From positions 1 through 15,115 of the forward strand of contig AUXH01000471.1 in NCBI GenBank assembly GCA_000482145.1: a stretch of DNA of 15,115 bases, given 5' to 3'. Both the position numbers and the translations under genes were made by a program. Shown in pieces: positions 2,156-14,286 of this stretch. The notes under the pieces are model-generated. The model was not told the origin of the DNA and did not search any database. It saw nothing but the letters and a program-made list of their open reading frames with translations. Numbering within the stretch: position 1 is the first letter of the stretch; the number at the start of each line of letters is the position of its first letter. This DNA is from Strigomonas culicis. Taxonomy: Eukaryota > Euglenozoa > Kinetoplastea > Trypanosomatida > Trypanosomatidae.

Positions 2156-3907
2156 ATGGAGTCTAACTACCTCAAGTCCGTGGTCGGCCCCATCCTCGCG
2201 AAGGCGGTGGCCGAGACGGTCGTGGCGCGGCCGCAGTGCCCCACGGAGTACCTCGCGCTGTACCTCCTTCACCACATCCAGGAAAAGGAGCTGCGGGAGC
2301 GCGACGTGAAGAACGCCACGAAGGCAGAGCACCTCCGTGGCGAGTGCGCGGAGGCGCAGCGCGAACAGGAGAAGCTGGCCGCGGACCGCATCCAGAAGCA
2401 GTTTCGTGCCTTCCGCATCCGCACGGCGAAGCGACAGGAGGAGGAGGCCGCGTGGGCGCAGCTGTACGAAGAGAGCGTCGGCGAGGCGGAGGATCTGTTG
2501 GATCGCCTGCCGCCCGTTGCGAAGGCCGCCGACGACGAGGCAGCACCGAACCTGAGCCCGGAGGTGCTCTACGACGAGGAGCACTGGACTCCTGGCGCGC
2601 CCTCCTTTGCGGAGATCGCGGAGAAGCTGGACGAGACGCGCCGTGCCTTCTTCACGCAGCAGAAGTTCATCTGCGACCACCTCCAGAAGCAGCAGGTCGG
2701 TGCACTGAAGGAGCTCGTGGTGGACCGCCGCGACTTCGTCGAGCGCGGGCTGGCGACCGCGGAGAAGGCGAAGGACGCCGCGCTCGCGGCGGAGGATGCC
2801 GCTCAGGAGGCCGCGGCGGCCGCCGACACGGTGGCCCGCGAGCACCGCTTCAACGCGGACCTCGCCGTGCCGCCCGCGGCGAGCGCGTTGGCTGCCCAGC
2901 TGTTGGAGCAGCAGCAGGGCGACGTCAGCGGCAAGGCGCCGCCGGCCAACGCGCCCTACTTGGCGTACCTGCTGCTCAAGTGCGTGCTGTACCTGCTGCA
3001 GGGCCCGCGGGCGACGCCCAAGTCGACGCGCGCGGTCGCGCATCTGGTACAGTTCTGCAAGCCCACGCTGCTCGCGAAGCAGCTCAAGGCGTACAACCCG
3101 GTGAAGAGCTATCGGCTGAACGAGCCGCTGCTGCTGGCGAGCCTGCTGCCGGCTGGCGAGGAGGAGGAAGAGGCCGCGCCGCCGCGCAAGAAGGCGGCGG
3201 CCGGCGAGGACGCGGAGGCCGACGCCGGCGAGGAGTTTCCGCAGACCCGCACCCGCGCCGTGCGGCGCGTCGCGCGCATCCTCCGCTACCTCTTCACTAC
3301 GGCGGAGCGCCGCCACCGGCCGTACGTGACGGACCTGCTGCCGTCGGACTTCTTCTTCAACCACGAGGACCCCACCGCGGCGGAGCAGGAGCTGGCTGAC
3401 CTCCTCGAGGACGAGGGCGGACCGCTCGTCGCGGAGCAGGAGGCGGCCGAGGCGATCCGCGCGGCGCGCACGGCCGCGAAGGAGACACTGCTCGAGGACG
3501 ACCTGCGGCGCGCCGCCGGCGGCGGCATCTGGCTCGTCGCGCTGTACCGGTACGTGGACGCCGCGGTGCAGTACCGCCTGGCGCGCGACGCGCTCGCAGA
3601 GGCGCTGCAGAGCGGCAAGCCCGCGAACCCCGCCGGCGTCGCGCTGCCGGAGGACAACGAGGCGCCCGAGGCGGAGGAGGAGGACGATCAGAACGAGGAG
3701 GTGCTGCTCGACGACGAGGGCCTACCGGACGAGGAGCAGGTGCGCGCGGTGCGCCACAAGGTCGGCGAGGACGCCGAGGAGACGATAGTGAAGACGTGGG
3801 AGACGATCGATGGGCGCCGCCGCAAGGAGCTGACGGAGCTCGCCGTCGCGTTTAGAAAAAAGCAGCTGCAGGAGAGCAAGAACGATGAGGACGAGGACGG
3901 CAAGTGA
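2156..3907 (+). CDS. DPY-30 and IQ-motif protein, probably flagellar
   Basis: A 583-residue acidic protein. Residues about 5-45 match the DPY-30 dimerisation motif (YLKSVVGPILAKAVAE, then RPQCPTEYLALYLL). This motif docks on amphipathic helices in radial-spoke and COMPASS complexes. Residues 79-89 fit the IQ calmodulin-binding consensus with I79, Q80, R84 and R89. A helical Ala/Glu-rich stretch follows at about 195-230. A central region at about 262-400 contains two hydrophobic helices and has no family I recognise. The C-terminal third is very acidic (about 500-525 and the last ten residues). DPY-30 plus IQ in one chain recalls radial-spoke proteins of the RSP2 type, so an axonemal calmodulin-linked scaffold is the best inference; no GAF domain was recognised. 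The ATG at 2156 is the first after the predicted splice acceptor. The domain calls are firmer than the role. Confidence 0.82.
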   Translation: MESNYLKSVVGPILAKAVAETVVARPQCPTEYLALYLLHHIQEKELRERDVKNATKAEHLRGECAEAQREQEKLAADRIQKQFRAFRIRTAKRQEEEAAWAQLYEESVGEAEDLLDRLPPVAKAADDEAAPNLSPEVLYDEEHWTPGAPSFAEIAEKLDETRRAFFTQQKFICDHLQKQQVGALKELVVDRRDFVERGLATAEKAKDAALAAEDAAQEAAAAADTVAREHRFNADLAVPPAASALAAQLLEQQQGDVSGKAPPANAPYLAYLLLKCVLYLLQGPRATPKSTRAVAHLVQFCKPTLLAKQLKAYNPVKSYRLNEPLLLASLLPAGEEEEEAAPPRKKAAAGEDAEADAGEEFPQTRTRAVRRVARILRYLFTTAERRHRPYVTDLLPSDFFFNHEDPTAAEQELADLLEDEGGPLVAEQEAAEAIRAARTAAKETLLEDDLRRAAGGGIWLVALYRYVDAAVQYRLARDALAEALQSGKPANPAGVALPEDNEAPEAEEEDDQNEEVLLDDEGLPDEEQVRAVRHKVGEDAEETIVKTWETIDGRRRKELTELAVAFRKKQLQESKNDEDEDGK

Positions 3908-5687: not shown

Positions 5688-6082
5688 TAGAATTAAAAAA
5701 AAACAGAAACCATAAAAACAACAACAACAACAACATAAAAACCATTCATATATGAGAGAGTACAGTTTTAGTGTGATTACAATACACAGAGGAAATAGCA
5801 ACACGCAAAAAATACAAACAAATAGAATATATAACGGATACGTGTTCCTATAGTAAGGCCACAACAATGCAAACTGTTATTATTGACTATTTGTATACGT
5901 GTTCATTTTTTTTCTCCTTCTTTCTCTCTTTACATGTGTGTACAATATTTCATAGTTCGTATGCTTCTAACTTTTGCGATGCTATTGTTGCTATGTCGAC
6001 AACAACCAGACATATGTCTTACACATAAAAACAATTTCACTTCTCTTGCGTTTGCTTTTTTTTTTGTTCTAACTGATAATCA

Positions 6083-6133
6083 CTCTCTCTTTCCTTCTCT
6101 TTCTCTTCCTCCTCTACACACGATCTGCCTAAG
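6083..6133 (+). promoter_or_regulatory. Probable trans-splice acceptor for NEK-GFA gene
   Basis: A 33-base uninterrupted pyrimidine tract spans 6083-6115, with the first following AG at 6132-6133. Further AGs at 6194-6195, 6200-6201 and 6204-6205 could also serve. Every option lies upstream of the ATG at 6226 with no intervening ATG. Confidence 0.6.
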
Positions 6134-6225: not shown

Positions 6226-7944
6226 ATGAACGCCATGGACGAGCTGAACATAATGCTGGGCCTCGGCGCGGCACGGCCCTTCCAGCTGCCTCCCGCGATG
6301 GTGGAGAAGGGGTTTGCGATAATCAAAAAGTTAGGCAAGGGCTCCTTCGGTGAAGCGTTCCTCGCCACAGTGCCGCTTTCCACCATTATCAACATCAACA
6401 ACAGCAACAACAATAGTAATAACAATAGTGCTTATAAGAACGAAACGGAGTTAGTCTGTGTAAAGTATATCAACACGACTCGTATGTCGAAGCGCCAAAA
6501 GCACGACGTGGAGTCGGAGGTGATAATCCTACAGCGGTTGAAGCACCCAAACATCATTCAGTACATCACTTCCTATCTACCCTCGTCGTCCGCGGCGTCG
6601 CCGCTCCACAACAATAACAACAATAATGCCAACGCGAATAATTTCTTTATTGTGATGGAGTACGCAGATGGCGGGGATCTCTGTTCGCTTCTGCAGAAGC
6701 GAAAGCGCAACGTAACAACCGCCATGAGCCCCACCGCCGCTGCCATCTTGAATAAGCAAATCAACAAGGCGCATTCACCGCACCACCATAATAGTAACAA
6801 CAATGGGTATCTCTCTGAAAAGGAGGTGCTGTATATCTTTGTACAGATCGTCTTGTCGCTCGTGTACATGCACGACCGCCACCTGCTACATCGCGACATC
6901 AAGAGCCAGAATATTTTTCTGCGGCGCACCTCGCCCGCGCGGCGCGGCGGCGCTGGCGGCAGCGCGGCGCGCGATGGGGGGCTGCTGGACTACATTGTGA
7001 AGCTCGGCGATTTCGGCATCACCACCATCCTGAACGACACGGTCGCGATGGCAAGTACCATGTGCGGCACGCCCTGCTACTTCTCACCCGAGATCTGCTT
7101 CGGCAAAAAGTACAACAACAAGAGCGATATTTGGGCCCTCGGCGTCCTGCTGTTCGAGCTCGCCTGCCTCCGCATGCCCTTCACCGCCATGAGCTCGATG
7201 AAGGACCTCATGTACGAAATCTGCTACTGTCAATTAGAGGATGACCGGCTGCGGCCATCGCTGGGCGTGGGGCGGTCCCTGCCAGTCAGCGGCGTCGTGC
7301 CGGGGCTGCCGCCGAAAAAGGAAAAGGCGATCTACCGCAAAGAGGTGTTCCCCTCGTGCTACTCGGATGCGCTGTGGCAGCTCATCAAGGTCCTGCTGCA
7401 GAAGGACGCGACCCAGAGGCCGTCTGCGCACGACATCTTGGCCATCCCCGTCGTCGCCGCCGCGCTGCCGGATGTTCACGCACAGCTACAGGGCGCGGCG
7501 GCGGCGGCCGCCGCCGCGCGCGGATCTCTGCTGCGGCCGCTGCTGCAGCCACCCGCGCGGGGCGACCCCGTGGAGAGCCCACCGTTAGCACCGGTGTCGA
7601 ACCTGCCGCCCGCACCCCCGAAGCGGCAGATCTATACTAAAGACACACCCGCGTCGCTTCATAATAGTAGTGGTAGTACTAACAATAATAACAGTAATAA
7701 TAATAAGAAGAAGAATAAGGGGTCGGACAAGGACCATGGGCTGCTGCTGGGTGTGCAGGGGTCACCCGTTGCTGCTGCTGCTGTTGCGGCGGCGGCCGAT
7801 AGACGATCTTCGCGATCGCTGCCGCCGCAGATTATGGAGGACGGTGCTGCAAAGCCTAAGGAGGTGCGGGACCCACGCCATCAGAGCACGAGTGAGACTG
7901 GCACCTTGGTGTTGCCAGCCGCTGTCTCACCAAAACACAATAGC

Positions 7945-7978
<34 letters not shown>

Positions 7979-9357
7979 TGAAAGTTGATAATTATGAGTA
8001 CTATCGCGACTTTTATTTCCAGAATAAGAACAAAGATGCAAAAGAGAAGACCCCCGCGGCGAGCGATGCACATTTGGAGAAACCGGTTTTTCCGAAGAAT
8101 CCGGAGGGCGTCAGCGAAAAGGAAGAGCCGAGGGAAAAAGAGAAGGAGAAGGAGAAGGAAAGGGCAAAGTCGCCGATCTACAATAGCAACAACAAGAACA
8201 AGAACAACAACAATAATAATAATAATAATAAGGTCAAGAGCACGAATATAAAGGATTTGCTATATCGTTATGATGCGGAGAAGAAGCGGTATCATGAGAA
8301 CAAACAAGCGGTGCCGAGCAATCATAACAATAACAATGATCATAATAAGAATAAGCAACCACAGGCGCAGCATAGAGAAAAAGAGAGTAAAGTATACGAG
8401 CCCATGACACCGCCGACAAAAGACCGAGTGAGCAACCCACGTTCACTGATGCACAACAGTAACAATAACAGCAATAGTAGTTATGAGAATGAGAAGGAGC
8501 TGAATAGTCATAATGCTACGGATGAGATTGATGAAGTATTGAAGGAAATCACGTACCACTTGCAATCCATGAAGCAGAAACCAACGGATGGCAGTGCAAC
8601 TGAAGATCCCAACGCGGATAGCAACTTCGAAGATCAGAACGACGACGTGCTCAACATCAATGAGATTATGAAACAGAATGAGTTGTTCCAGACACTCAAG
8701 AAGGAAAAGACAGACGAACCAATGGACGAGGCGGAGAAGAGCCATTCGCCGTATAGCTCGTTTTCATCTTCTATAGCCAGTACCCCCACCACCGACGCAC
8801 ATCCGACCCACCCAGAGACGAAGGAGGGGGAGGCAGCGGCGGAGCTCACTGCTGCTGCTGCCATCCACAATAGCAACACGAATAATAATAACAATCACAA
8901 TAGTGTGAGTGAGGCGGAGGGCGGCGCCGACCCACTGTACCTCGAAGGCCACTGCCTGTGTCGCGCCGTGAAGATTCGCGTCCCCTTCTCTTTTATCTTT
9001 GGTGAGGTACAGTGTTCCTGCGCGGACTGCCTATCCATCTGTGGCCTCTACGCCTACCCCGACCGCGGGGATCGCACGGTCGGGGTGCTGTGGCTGCACA
9101 GCCCTTGCGTTGAGCGGGTAGAAGACTGGACGTCGCTGGCAGCCGCGGATAATAATGCTAATGGGCGGATCCAGCATTATGTTTATGCGAATGGTCACGC
9201 AGACGCGGCGGAGCATTTTGACGTGTACTTCTGTTCCTGCTGCGGCGCCCGGGTGGCGATTACACATCCAAAGCTGGATGGGTTTTTGTTTTCGAAGGCG
9301 GTCATCAACGAGGCGAGCTTAGCCCTTTTTGCGAAATACAACGTTCCGTGTTCTTAA
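6226..9357 (+). CDS. NEK-type protein kinase fused to a GFA/CENP-V zinc domain
   Basis: A 1043-residue protein. Residues about 30-410 are a complete Ser/Thr kinase: glycine loop G37-x-G39-x-x-G42, K80 in VCVK, helix-C glutamate probably E98, HRDIKSQNIFL with D224, DFG at 262-264, GTPCYFSPE ending at E289, and R398. HRDIKSQN and the LGDFGI context are typical of the NEK family (cell cycle, basal body, flagellum). Asn-rich inserts sit in kinase loops at 56-68, 128-139 and 186-193. Residues about 410-900 are a disordered, Asn/Lys/Glu-rich linker. Residues about 905-1043 match the GFA/CENP-V fold, with all seven zinc cysteines: C910, C912, C930, C932, C935, C1003 and C1006 (followed by G1007). 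One open frame covers the whole protein, with no spacer-like sequence between domains. The start is the ATG at 6226; a longer frame begins only at a GTG (6208). The kinase is probably active; the role of the fused domain is unknown. Confidence 0.9.
6391..6429 (+). repeat. Asn/Ser-rich insert in kinase domain (residues 56-68)
   Basis: AAC/AAT/AGT codons encode an Asn/Ser run inserted after the glycine loop and before the strand carrying K80. This position is a surface loop in protein kinases, so the insert should not destroy the fold. Confidence 0.75.
6607..6642 (+). repeat. Asn-rich insert in kinase domain (residues 128-139)
   Basis: An insert of His followed by Asn/Ala sits between the HPNIIQYITSY strand and the FFIVMEYADGG hinge strand. 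It is a loop position that tolerates insertions. Confidence 0.7.
6781..6804 (+). repeat. His/Asn-rich insert in kinase domain (residues 186-193)
   Basis: HHHNSNNN lies in an extended loop between the helix-D region and the helix-E region (YLSEKEVLYIFVQIVLSL). It begins with the same HNS seed found at the later tracts. Confidence 0.65.
7660..7704 (+). repeat. Asn/Ser tract in linker (residues 479-493)
   Basis: The tract opens with CAT-AAT-AGT (HNS) and continues with Ser/Gly/Thr and then mixed AAC/AAT codons. It lies in the disordered linker after the kinase domain. Confidence 0.7.
7936..7974 (+). repeat. (AAT)10 coding microsatellite (residues 571-583)
   Basis: After a CAC-AAT-AGC (HNS) seed come ten identical AAT codons (7945-7974). 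The pure codon run suggests recent slippage expansion, in contrast to the mixed AAC/AAT tracts elsewhere in the gene. Confidence 0.8.
8179..8229 (+). repeat. Asn/Lys tract in linker (residues 652-668)
   Basis: The tract opens with TAC-AAT-AGC (YNS), passes through Asn/Lys and ends in six AAT codons before AAG. A Lys/Glu-rich charged block lies just upstream, at about 8107-8165. Confidence 0.7.
8320..8355 (+). repeat. Asn/His/Asp/Lys tract in linker (residues 699-710)
   Basis: This tract contains two CAT-AAY starts (N-H-N and D-H-N) and mixed Asn codons. It is a more degenerate member of the same set. Confidence 0.55.
8452..8481 (+). repeat. Asn/Ser tract in linker (residues 743-752)
   Basis: The tract opens with CAC-AAC-AGT (HNS) followed by alternating Asn and Ser codons of mixed third base. 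Confidence 0.65.
8866..8904 (+). repeat. Asn tract preceding the GFA/CENP-V domain (residues 881-893)
   Basis: The tract opens with CAC-AAT-AGC (HNS) and closes with a second CAC-AAT-AGT. It separates the disordered linker from the zinc domain that starts about 15 residues later. Confidence 0.7.
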
Positions 9358-10490: not shown

Positions 10491-10806
10491 GCGCACCTTG
10501 GGGCCTCCTGTCGTTGTCTTCTCTTCTTCACTTGTTCTAGTTGCTGGCGATCGTAGTTGGCGTTAGTGTTGTTTGGTTGTGTTCTTGATTACATCCTCGT
10601 ATCTATTCCTTCTTTTTTTTTTCTTTGCCCTTTTTTTTTATTTTATCGATCTCCATGTAATGGGATTGCTGTCCATCCGCATGTTCTATCTATCCATCTA
10701 TACGTATAGGTGCTCGCTCCCTCCTTCTTCCTTTTACCATCCAGTACACAAAAGCACACAAGACATAACGAAAAAAAAAGAAAAAAAAACACCCATTGAG
10801 AGTGTC
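10491..10806. other. Intergenic spacer and 5' leader of tRNase Z gene
   Basis: A 316-base region with a T-rich block at 10600-10639, a second pyrimidine tract at 10711-10740 and poly-A runs just before the ATG. The tRNase Z frame is open through much of it and would encode a Phe/Leu-rich stretch, but its in-frame ATG at 10660 lies upstream of the first AG after the T-rich block. The stretch is therefore more likely untranslated. Confidence 0.65.
10711..10744 (+). promoter_or_regulatory. Probable trans-splice acceptor for tRNase Z gene
   Basis: A pyrimidine tract spans 10711-10740, with CCAG placing the AG at 10743-10744. This gives a 5' UTR of about 62 bases with no ATG before 10807. The AG at 10708-10709 is an alternative served by the upstream T-rich block. 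Confidence 0.6.
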
Positions 10807-13800
10807 ATGACGCAAACTCTGCAGTTGCTGGGGACGGATGTGCCCCACAGTTATGGCGGCTGCTGTTTCTCCGGGCCGCTGTTTCAACACCTGTTCGCTC
10901 CGGAGCAGACAAGTGAAAAGAAGCTTTCCCGACAACAACAACAGCAGCAGCAACCACCACAACAATCACCTACTAGTCATAACACGAATGCGACGAGTGT
11001 ACCTGGCTGTGTAGAAGGCTATTTGTTCTTTAACTGTCCGGAAGGGACGCAGCGCAACAGCAGCGAGGCGAACATCAAGTTGAATAAAGTAAAGTGCTTT
11101 TTTTTCACGCGCTTCGGTCACGCAAGACAGAAGGATCAGAAAGAGGAGGAAGAGGATGATGATAAAGCGATAGAGGAGCCGGTTGCGCCTGTGCCGCATC
11201 AACCGCCGTCCGAGCGGCAGGGGTCGCCGATCGGCTGCGGCACCGCGGTGATGGGCTCCCCGGGGCTGCTCTTCACCATCAACGACAGCGGCGTCAGCGC
11301 CGCGTCCTTCTTCGGCCCCTCCACCCCGCTGTACGTGCGGTCCGCAGCGGTGGCGGCGGGTGGGTGGGAGCCGCGCTCGGCGCCGCTGGCGGGCGTCGCA
11401 CGGTACCTGCGGGTGCTGCGTACCCACTACTTCACCTATCGCAGGATGAGCCTGCGGCTGCTCTCTCCGCTCTTCACGCCCATCGCACCAGAGTCAACCG
11501 ATGACGGCCCCGCCGCAGCGGCGGCGCGCGACGAGTGGCTGCTGCGTGGCGGCGGCGATCTCCACAATGACACCGCGCGCGTGAACCTCGAGCAGCAGTG
11601 TGTCCCCACACCGCAGCTGGTGGGCCGGGGGAGGCGTATTGTACTGACGCTACCTTTGTCGGACCATTCGCTCCTCGTCGCATTCAAAACGACGGCGGGC
11701 CGGGCCGCTACGGTGGATGCTGCTGCCTTCGGCGCACATGATGTGCTCAGCTATCTGATTGTCTACGCCCCCAGACCCTTCTTCGATGCATCCAAAGCGA
11801 AGGCGCTGTGCATACCGCCGGGGCCGCGCTTCACGCAGCTAAAGGCCGGCCAACCCATCTGGGTGGACCTGGGTCTGGCGGGCGCGGCCGGCCAGGGCAG
11901 GAGTGCGAAGCGCCGGCGGCAGGAGGAGAAGCAGCAGCAAACGGGAACGACAGAAGAGGCGAAAAAAGAAAACCCGGCGGCGTGTTTTTGGGTGCACCCG
12001 GAGCAGGTGCTGGCGCACACCAAAGGCAGCAAGCGGCTCTATCTTTCGTTCATCCTGGACGCCGATGCGGAGGAAGCGCTGGAGGAATCCCTCGCCGATT
12101 TGTGCGCGCCGTCCTCGCCCGAGGGCGGCGTGGTGGAGGGCGAGCTCATCACGCTGCTGCGGATCGCCTTCCCCAGTTATTACTATTATTCGGATTACGA
12201 TAATGGGAATGCGCGCGTGGCGCGCGAGTGGGTGATTCAGCAGGTACTGCATCTACAGGCGGATGTTTACTTTGAAACACAGGTAGTGCAGGCGGCTAGG
12301 AGCAGCACGGCGGCGGCAGCCATGCGGCACGAAGAGCTGTGCTACACGTCCTACTGCCAACGGCTCTTCGCCTTCCTCCCCCAAGACCAGAACACGGAGG
12401 CCGGTCACGCCGTGCTGTTCCCTCACTGTTTTGAACAAGGGGCTGCTGCATCGAGGTACACGGAGGCGCCTCCGGCGGGGCGGGCGCCCATCAAGCACAT
12501 CTTTGCGCACCTTGTGATGCGCCGCTTCTCGGCGTTCCCGACCGCGCTGTCGCACCGGCACCACTTGCACTATCTGGCGCGCTCGCTCTTTCCGTTTTCG
12601 GCCATGGAGCCCTCACCGCCACAACAGCAACACGAACATAAAAATACTAGTCATGATGGGGATGATACGGGTCGAAAATACTATTGGCCCTACTCGTTTT
12701 TGTTTCCCTGCGCGCCGACAGAGGATGTGGTGCGCAGTGGCAATCAGACGCCCGCTGCCACGACGCACTGGCTGCAGTATCCGTCCTTCTCCTCTTCCTT
12801 GGCGTTGTTGTCGAAACCGTTTATGGAAACGGTGAATGCCATCTTGTCCGAGCAGGCGTCAGCACAGCAGGGGAAACAGTCAGAGAATCAGAGTTACAAC
12901 TTGGATGATTATCACGCGCAACACGCGGTCTCTTTTTTAGGGACAGGGTCCGCCATTCCGAGTAAGTACCGCAACGTTAGCGGCACCTTTTTGGAGCTGT
13001 ACATTCCCACACTTCCGCCTTCCCATCCGCACCATCCCCAGTCGTTCGAAAAACGGATTGTGGTGTTGGACTTTGGGGAGGGAAACGCCGGGCAGCTGGC
13101 GAGCCTCTTGGCGGCGGCGCCGCACCGCGACGCGCTGCCGAGCTTCCTGCGCCAGCTGCTCTTTGTGTTCATTTCTCACGGCCACGCCGACCACCATTTT
13201 GGGCTCCTCACACTGCTGAGCCTTCGCCATTATTACGTGTATCATCGCGACGGCGACCGCCACCACCACCCGCCCCCGCACGGTGCGACAGCGGCACAAG
13301 AGAAGCTGCTGGTGGTGCTGCCCGAGGAGGTCTATCGTTTTATGATGGACCTGTGGGGACCGGTCGAGCCGTACCGCACGATTTTTGAGCGCGAAGTCGA
13401 TTTTGATATTATTTCCTATCACGAAACCACCACCACCACAGCGATAAACCACCACACACCGCCGCATGGCGGCGCAGACTTTGTTGGGCACGCGGCCGTG
13501 CTGCCGAAGCTGCGGGCGCGGCTGCATGAGTGGAACCAACCGCTGCAGCCGTCACACGCACCGGAGGCCACCACACCACAACATAAGAATGTGTTCTGGG
13601 ATGCGGATGTCTTCACGGTCGACCACCCGGCGAACGCACACGCCTTGCTGCTGCGCTTCCCTTTTTTAGTTCCCTCCACATCCGCTGCTGCTGCTGCTGC
13701 TGCGGCCAGTCGTCTGCCGCTCGAGCTGTCGTCAAAAGTGTTTCTCTTCTCCGGCGACACGCGGCCCTGCGAGTATCTCATCGAGCGCTGCCAGCTGTTC

Positions 13801-14286
13801 ACCGGCCCGCAGCCGCATCCCAACCCGATCTTTATCTGTCTCCACGAGGCGACGTTCGGCGTCGGCTTCGAGGCGGAGGCGGTCCGGAAGCGGCACTCCA
13901 CCTTCACGGAGGCGATGTCCGTGCACGCGCGCATTGGGTCCACGTTCCTTGTACTCAATCACTTTTCACAGCGCTACCCGAAGCTGCCCTCTCTCTTCGA
14001 CACGACGCAGACGATCAAGCAACAAGAGAAGCGAGGCGCTCTGAGTCCCACCACGACGGGCGATGGGGATGACATGGATGTCCATACTGCTGCTGTGAAT
14101 GAGAACAACAGTGAGAATAGTTTATGTAAAAGCGTCAGCTTCTCCTTCGATCTGATGCGTTTGGCGTTCTCGTCTATTCACAAAAATGAAATATCGAACA
14201 AAATGATTTTGTTTTCCCTCTTGTTGAAGGAGTATGAGAGCTGGGAATCTGGCACAACAAAAAGACTGCGTGGTGGTGCAGATTAA
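10807..14286 (+). CDS. tRNase Z, long form (ELAC2 type)
   Basis: This endonuclease removes the 3' trailer of precursor tRNAs before CCA addition. The 1159-residue protein has the two-lobed long-form layout. The N-terminal degenerate metallo-beta-lactamase half keeps YLFFNCPEGTQRNSSEANIK (about 72-91), FFFTRFGH and GSPGLLFTINDSG, but no metal-binding histidines. The C-terminal catalytic half has FLGTGSAIPSKYRN (from 710), LDFGEG, the HxHxDHH motif (H791, H793, D795, H796), SGDTRP with D984 (982-987), HEATF (1013-1017), HST (1030-1032) and NHFSQRY with H1052. It is much longer than the roughly 800-850 residues usual for the family, because of Gln-, His-, Thr-, Ala- and charge-rich inserts, for example a poly-Gln run near the N-terminus and an Ala run at about 13682-13706. 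The start at 10807 is the first ATG after the splice acceptor. All trypanosomatid tRNAs are nuclear-encoded, so a nuclear role is expected; there is no clear mitochondrial leader. Confidence 0.93.
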   Translation: MTQTLQLLGTDVPHSYGGCCFSGPLFQHLFAPEQTSEKKLSRQQQQQQQPPQQSPTSHNTNATSVPGCVEGYLFFNCPEGTQRNSSEANIKLNKVKCFFFTRFGHARQKDQKEEEEDDDKAIEEPVAPVPHQPPSERQGSPIGCGTAVMGSPGLLFTINDSGVSAASFFGPSTPLYVRSAAVAAGGWEPRSAPLAGVARYLRVLRTHYFTYRRMSLRLLSPLFTPIAPESTDDGPAAAAARDEWLLRGGGDLHNDTARVNLEQQCVPTPQLVGRGRRIVLTLPLSDHSLLVAFKTTAGRAATVDAAAFGAHDVLSYLIVYAPRPFFDASKAKALCIPPGPRFTQLKAGQPIWVDLGLAGAAGQGRSAKRRRQEEKQQQTGTTEEAKKENPAACFWVHPEQVLAHTKGSKRLYLSFILDADAEEALEESLADLCAPSSPEGGVVEGELITLLRIAFPSYYYYSDYDNGNARVAREWVIQQVLHLQADVYFETQVVQAARSSTAAAAMRHEELCYTSYCQRLFAFLPQDQNTEAGHAVLFPHCFEQGAAASRYTEAPPAGRAPIKHIFAHLVMRRFSAFPTALSHRHHLHYLARSLFPFSAMEPSPPQQQHEHKNTSHDGDDTGRKYYWPYSFLFPCAPTEDVVRSGNQTPAATTHWLQYPSFSSSLALLSKPFMETVNAILSEQASAQQGKQSENQSYNLDDYHAQHAVSFLGTGSAIPSKYRNVSGTFLELYIPTLPPSHPHHPQSFEKRIVVLDFGEGNAGQLASLLAAAPHRDALPSFLRQLLFVFISHGHADHHFGLLTLLSLRHYYVYHRDGDRHHHPPPHGATAAQEKLLVVLPEEVYRFMMDLWGPVEPYRTIFEREVDFDIISYHETTTTTAINHHTPPHGGADFVGHAAVLPKLRARLHEWNQPLQPSHAPEATTPQHKNVFWDADVFTVDHPANAHALLLRFPFLVPSTSAAAAAAAASRLPLELSSKVFLFSGDTRPCEYLIERCQLFTGPQPHPNPIFICLHEATFGVGFEAEAVRKRHSTFTEAMSVHARIGSTFLVLNHFSQRYPKLPSLFDTTQTIKQQEKRGALSPTTTGDGDDMDVHTAAVNENNSENSLCKSVSFSFDLMRLAFSSIHKNEISNKMILFSLLLKEYESWESGTTKRLRGGAD

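Follow-up and report, generated by a model that had tools for sequence, protein, structure and literature searches.

A NEK-type kinase joined to a GFA/CENP-V domain in Strigomonas culicis and other kinetoplastids

One reading frame, two domains

A single gene of the trypanosomatid Strigomonas culicis encodes a NEK-type protein kinase and a GFA/CENP-V domain in one reading frame, and we consider this join to be genuine, with a probability of roughly 95%, and old. The gene lies in a stretch of 15,115 nucleotides (contig AUXH01000471.1, the whole of which we call the window), and its 1043 codons run in the order kinase (residues ~31-408), mostly disordered Asn-rich tether and C-terminal GFA/CENP-V domain (~904-1040); coordinates of the features are collected in Table 1. 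The arrangement is beyond chance, as the 37 best database matches share it and the modelled GFA domain is most like solved structures of the GFA family. The original prediction had proposed just such a fusion, on one uninterrupted frame, with the zinc domain following the kinase by about 500 residues. The open reading frame (ORF) at 6226..9357 on the + strand indeed has no break, the distance is right given a kinase end near residue 408 and a GFA start near residue 904, and the claim of one polypeptide is supported by the 37 relatives, which are likewise single predicted proteins with both domains.

The kinase half is recognized readily, with a Pfam Pkinase match at E = 1.9e-46 for the whole protein. 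In a sequence search of the PDB the top 16 entries, among the best 60 of 616 matches, are all NEK1, NEK2 or NEK7, with ULK1 next, and this supports the NEK identity originally assigned. The complete motifs of an active kinase (Lys, Glu, HRD, Asn and DFG) are present in the window copy and in every other sequence of a 38-sequence alignment, where G37-K-G39, K80, E98, H222-R-D224, N229 and D262-F-G264 are each found in 38/38. Upstream of the kinase, the N-terminal signature residues M1, L7, N8, L11, G12, G14 and P22 are equally invariant (38/38 each). The activation segment includes Cys284, which all 38 kinase-GFA sequences have, as do 3 of the 83 other matches listed; the idea that it might be a special redox residue is weakened because the Nek8-like P0064 and two further matches carry it as well. 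Asn runs in the window copy reach a length of 10, and one run of 6 lies inside the kinase domain. The full-length structure model, for which 30 sequences were used, has a mean predicted local distance difference test score (pLDDT) of 56.5 and a predicted template modelling score of 0.47, and parts of its kinase fall below 50 pLDDT, residues 260-283 among them.

The GFA half is fainter in database terms. Pfam GFA (PF04828) matches the whole protein at E 1.3e-3 and 19.2 bits, below the cut-off of 24.3, and the last 146 residues alone at E 7.3e-6 and 26.5 bits, above it; the same family is matched by 12 of 12 domain segments at E 0.1 and by 24 of 30 full proteins at E 0.05. The seven cysteines named in the original prediction (C910, C912, C930, C932, C935, C1003 and C1006) are exactly placed, each is retained by at least 37 of the 38 sequences, and they correspond in order to the two zinc sites of Paracoccus Gfa (cysteine numbering from the part of PMC4682968 available to us). 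Around them G926, G940, H958, P960, G1007 and G1019 are found in 38/38, and W956 and H1014 in 37/38. The modelled domain appears to adopt a beta-tent fold, and in the full-length model this part mostly scores ~80-90 pLDDT, with dips near 50. The cysteines and the model support the GFA/CENP-V fold that had been proposed. A Foldseek search with the domain model returned no match at E 0.001, and the one match of the single GFA part in a PDB sequence search (E 0.37) is unrelated and a chance hit. The spacing from C935 to C1003 is 67 residues in the window, 98-175 in copies from the trypanosomatid side, where it is low-complexity, and 40-44 in short bodonid-like copies, as measured by a pattern that, for some of the bodonid-like rows, matched a nearby Cys three positions too soon. 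A long low-complexity stretch between the Cys triad and the last CxxC may explain why the GFA domain is easily missed.

The tether is otherwise hard to align and mostly below 50 pLDDT, and from it stand out three predicted helices (residues 675-694, 763-783 and 811-828) that fall in short islands of conservation. Such conserved islands, as we read them from the sequences, are a new observation of this analysis. Island 1 is present in trypanosomatid rows and mostly gapped in bodonid rows, an assessment made partly by eye. In island 3, F801 and D803 are each found in 38/38, and both lie within residues 785-805, which score below 50 pLDDT. A stricter regular expression for the F801/D803 motif fits 32 of 38 tethers (shuffled mean 0.000 of 38, 200 shuffles); the window copy, which reads FEDQNDDVLNINE, is outside these 32.

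Could the frame nevertheless give two proteins, or be a product of assembly? The original prediction had raised both possibilities, and the sequence evidence bears out neither. We scanned for acceptor tracts of at least 12 bases with 90% pyrimidine, half of it T, and an AG within 60 bases. Internal candidates do exist: one of 12 bases in the tether (8761-8772), followed by AGs at 8775, 8779 and five more positions up to 8831, and one of ~22 bases in the GFA part (8979-9000). A separate GFA product is nonetheless very improbable because, from the sequence, every internal tract found follows the last in-frame Met codon (8722), which leaves no in-frame ATG for the GFA part. Splicing at 8979-9000 would moreover cut the domain after C912, the tract upstream of the gene is ~40 bases long as against 12 and ~22 internally, and the 37 relatives are predicted as single proteins. 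No tract qualified in the kinase part, and 7600-8960 holds no uninterrupted pyrimidine run of at least 10. Two mRNAs arising from a spliced-leader site at about 7600-8900 are thus not indicated. An assembly or annotation artefact that fused two genes can hardly be entertained, and we reject an assembly join because 37 orthologues, from several sources, share the architecture and no evidence in favor of such a join turned up.

Table 1. Features of the kinase-GFA gene in the window
Feature	Position	Strand	Basis
Probable spliced-leader acceptor region of the gene: 40-base pyrimidine-rich tract, AG at 6132	6077..6116	+	sequence only
Complete ORF, 1043 residues, ATG start, uninterrupted: NEK kinase, tether, GFA domain	6226..9357	+	ORF listing; 37 orthologues
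N-terminal signature, MNAMDELN... in window copy, kept across orthologue group	6226..6300	+	38-sequence alignment
NEK-type protein kinase domain, residues ~31-408, low-complexity inserts in several loops	6316..7449	+	Pfam, PDB sequence search, alignment
Activation segment TMCGTPCYFSPEICFG, includes Cys284	7057..7104	+	alignment
Tether island 1, residues 671-694, DLLYRYDAEKKR type, predicted helix 675-694	8236..8307	+	model; likeness partly by eye
Tether island 2, residues 763-783, IDEVLKEI type, predicted helix	8512..8574	+	alignment, model
Tether island 3, residues 801-828, FxDxxGTxLDVxxL type, predicted helix 811-828	8626..8709	+	alignment, model
Last in-frame Met codon, M833	8722..8724	+	sequence scan
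Sole qualifying tract in tether, 12 bases, T-rich, downstream of M833	8761..8772	+	acceptor scan
GFA/CENP-V beta-tent domain, residues ~904-1040, predicted zinc-binding	8935..9345	+	Pfam, cysteine pattern, structure model
C910-x-C912, half of putative Cys4 zinc site (Gfa C31, C33)	8953..8961	+	pattern, alignment
Longer tract, ~22 bases, AG 9005 and 9011, within GFA coding part, after C912 and M833	8979..9000	+	acceptor scan
C930-x-C932-xx-C935, putative Cys3 zinc/thiol site (Gfa C52, C54, C57)	9013..9030	+	pattern, alignment
C1003-xx-C1006, second half of putative Cys4 zinc site (Gfa C99, C102)	9232..9243	+	pattern, alignment

A kinetoplastid family and its most diverged member

The same architecture had been suggested as something to seek in relatives, and a protein database search found it (577 matches at E 0.001 from 7993 scored candidates, the best 120 of which we examined). 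The best 37 matches (P0001-P0037) have the same domain order in one predicted protein and all have the N-terminal signature. By regular expression the full C-terminal seven-cysteine pattern is present in 36 of the 37 orthologues and in none of the 83 remaining matches among the best 120 of 577. In P0034, from a contig of 2158 bases, the CxC and the last CxxC are kept and the central CxCxxC triad is missing, possibly a natural variant or a sequencing fault. Twenty of the 37 come from named organisms: Trypanosoma (7), Leishmania (7), Leptomonas (2), Phytomonas (1), Novymonas (1), Bodo saltans (1) and Neobodo designis (1). Judged by these predicted proteins, the kinase-GFA protein is a family that extends from free-living bodonids to Leishmania and not a local oddity.

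Several searches for further copies or gaps in the family came back empty, each within limits. No named T. brucei sequence is among the 37, where T. vivax, T. cruzi and T. grayi are present, nor did one appear with a T. vivax GFA query, which gave 4 proteins, missed T. cruzi and T. rangeli, and so cannot show loss. A Pfam search of the S. culicis genome found no second GFA gene, but it missed the window's own GFA too; the window GFA used as a protein query against that genome found itself only, though diverged copies may escape such a query. Among the matches listed for P0002 as query, for which only the best candidates were scored, there was no second full kinase-GFA copy. When a 12-segment GFA alignment was run against a wider database, no stand-alone GFA relative emerged at E 0.001 from the 524 candidates; the domain may have come by bacterial transfer or from an older eukaryotic GFA. 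Alignment A2 left out eight orthologues (P0012, P0015, P0018, P0022, P0024, P0026, P0027 and P0034).

Two kinase trees were built from matches of the database search and own-genome paralogues; a certain non-NEK outgroup was not included. The second (49 rows) was built after seeing the first, with long rows and near-duplicates dropped: it leaves out P0038, P0049, P0060, P0064, P0087, P0095, P0118, the own-genome loci L002 and L004-L008, and eight orthologues (P0012, P0015, P0017, P0018, P0022, P0026, P0027 and P0034). In this tree, from kinase domains alone, the 30 kinase-GFA rows make up one side of a branch with 100/100 support, and the window falls inside a 19-row set that includes the Trypanosoma and Leishmania-type copies (96/96), its nearest neighbour being without support (85/22). 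Two results weigh against our overall account of the protein. The 38 kinase-GFA members do not form one clade in the first tree (70 rows), where two changes are needed and one is enough in 5% of bootstrap trees; there the window and other long branches meet near the midpoint root. The other is that the GFA part of the window is just 23-33% identical to those of its orthologues.

The window copy is, among the sequences compared, the most diverged member of the family, which is a new observation here. Its kinase is 44-51% identical to the others, where the minimum among other pairs is 53%, and it departs at 24 of 121 otherwise conserved positions (next highest P0017, 12 of 118). Its end branch in the second tree measures 3.46, as against 0.18 for L003, a NEK gene of the same genome that lies among Leishmania-type sequences. 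Of 27 GFA-part positions shared by at least 33 of the 37 other sequences, the window copy has changed 7, and it keeps all seven cysteines. Because of the long branch and the 24 changed positions, the window copy appears to be evolving unusually fast with its catalytic and zinc residues intact, and its inserts may inflate the branch length.

What the GFA domain might do for the kinase

Given a genuine join, the next question is what a zinc domain is doing at the end of a kinase. Because of the kept residues and the literature on the fold, both docking and thiol sensing fit. We tentatively favor docking over sensing and would put it, by analogy with CENP-V, a little short of even odds that positioning the kinase is the main role of the GFA domain. 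CENP-V binds microtubules via its zinc-finger part, according to the available passages of PMC8586017, which also cite work in which it brings Src-family kinases to microtubules and functions at basal bodies. We propose that the GFA domain serves as a dock and keeps the kinase at its target, which, as with CENP-V, would most plausibly be a cytoskeletal or chromatin-linked structure, that the long disordered tether would let the kinase reach nearby substrates, and that the conserved tether islands might serve as further docking sites. A kinase with a built-in GFA domain could then be a covalent version of the arrangement in which CENP-V targets a kinase. Some points count the other way. The likeness to CENP-V is a likeness to the whole GFA family; the GFA-family entries among the best 50 of each fold list are bacterial and animal CENP-V was outside the comparison. 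The same fold binds glutathione in bacteria (PMC4682968, in part), which fits a sensor equally well. In L. mexicana, just 2 of 22 NEKs were refractory to deletion (18 of 20 deleted, as the discussion in the available part of PMC7902614 has it), which makes an essential mitotic role unlikely as a default assumption.

If the GFA domain were instead a thiol or aldehyde sensor, binding of glutathione, trypanothione or their formaldehyde adducts at its Cys3 site would act as the switch for the kinase. In kinetoplastids, trypanothione takes over much of glutathione's role. The Cys3 site is kept in 37/38, though the Cys4 site might suffice to hold the fold, and W956, H958 and H1014 are conserved; the beta-tent fold has a ligand groove (PMC4287342, in the portion available), in which these residues may lie. 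Paracoccus Gfa binds glutathione, and binding was not seen for its C54A variant, C54 being the equivalent of C932 in the window, but the affinity is weak, with a dissociation constant of 500 uM (all from the same part of PMC4682968). Nor is there a visible path from the GFA domain to the kinase along a tether that is long and mostly below 50 pLDDT, and the same thiol site is found in CENP-V, whose described role is in chromatin. We regard sensing as unlikely on balance, though it is the strongest alternative to docking. More doubtful still is its most specific form, a dedicated kinetoplastid NEK whose GFA tail would read a small thiol adduct, formed by glutathione or trypanothione and an aldehyde such as formaldehyde, and so tie thiol or one-carbon stress directly to cell-cycle or basal-body control. 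Third, the zinc domain may be no more than a tail for folding, stability or dimerization, with no ligand or target of its own. The 7 changed positions beside seven kept cysteines in the window copy would suit such a tail, as would the long low-complexity loops that trypanosomatid copies tolerate inside the domain, but the Cys3 site, W956, H958 and H1014 are not obviously needed by a Cys4 scaffold and are kept in 37 or 38 of 38, and we think this improbable.

The window holds other ORFs on the + strand. A 1208-residue ORF at 10660-14286 has metallo-beta-lactamase and weak tRNase Z matches in Pfam and is probably, from these matches, a long-form tRNase Z. A 583-residue ORF at 2156-3907 has a Dpy-30 motif at its start (6.2e-8), and a 437-residue ORF at 146-1459 has a TMEM65 domain (1.2e-25), both by Pfam.

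Comparison with known systems

The original prediction knew of no described NEK with this partner. That stands in so far as we found no description of a kinase-GFA/CENP-V pairing in kinetoplastids in the open-access literature, supplements excluded, but in the database's precomputed Pfam lists both domains already appear for 15 of the 37, and those 15 include no named Leishmania, Leptomonas, Phytomonas or Novymonas sequence. Trypanosomatid NEKs often bear extra domains such as PH, coiled coil and B-box (PMC1266030), and in the available part of that paper GFA is absent from Table 2, which lists accessory Pfam domains on trypanosomatid kinases. The word formaldehyde is absent from the NEK discussions in the available parts of PMC7618733 and PMC7902614. 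The GFA domain of CENP-V appears in a table in the accessible portion of a kinetochore review (PMC7614391). The excerpted text of PMC4287342, on the CULT domain, which is related to GFA, does not contain the word kinase; among the relatives it lists for CULT, a sister domain of GFA, L. major and T. cruzi are represented by one protein each.

The kinetoplastid orthologues named 'putative protein kinase' (P0001-P0037, for example L. major P0028, T. cruzi P0004 and Bodo saltans P0019) share with it the N-terminal signature, the NEK kinase, the F-x-D motif of the tether and the GFA domain at the C-terminus, and the window copy differs from them in being more diverged and in its Asn-rich inserts. 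The protein gives the expanded set of trypanosomatid NEKs a defined member whose putative regulatory tail can be put to the test, and its tether islands supply concrete residues for interaction work. NEK1, NEK2 and NEK7 are alike in the catalytic domain, and their PDB entry listings name no GFA part. Gfa of Paracoccus denitrificans (1X6M) is free-standing, whereas the GFA domain of the window is the tail of a kinase, and the spacing from the third Cys of the triad to the last CxxC is 41 residues in Gfa against 67 in the window. In mammalian CENP-V, as predicted for the window protein, a GFA-family domain bears a Cys4 and a Cys3 zinc site; the passages on CENP-V mention no kinase domain of its own and describe it rather as targeting kinases. 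Kinetoplastids unite in one protein a kinase and a CENP-V-type zinc domain that are separate proteins in the sources consulted, and the fusion offers a natural test of how a GFA/CENP-V domain acts beside a kinase.
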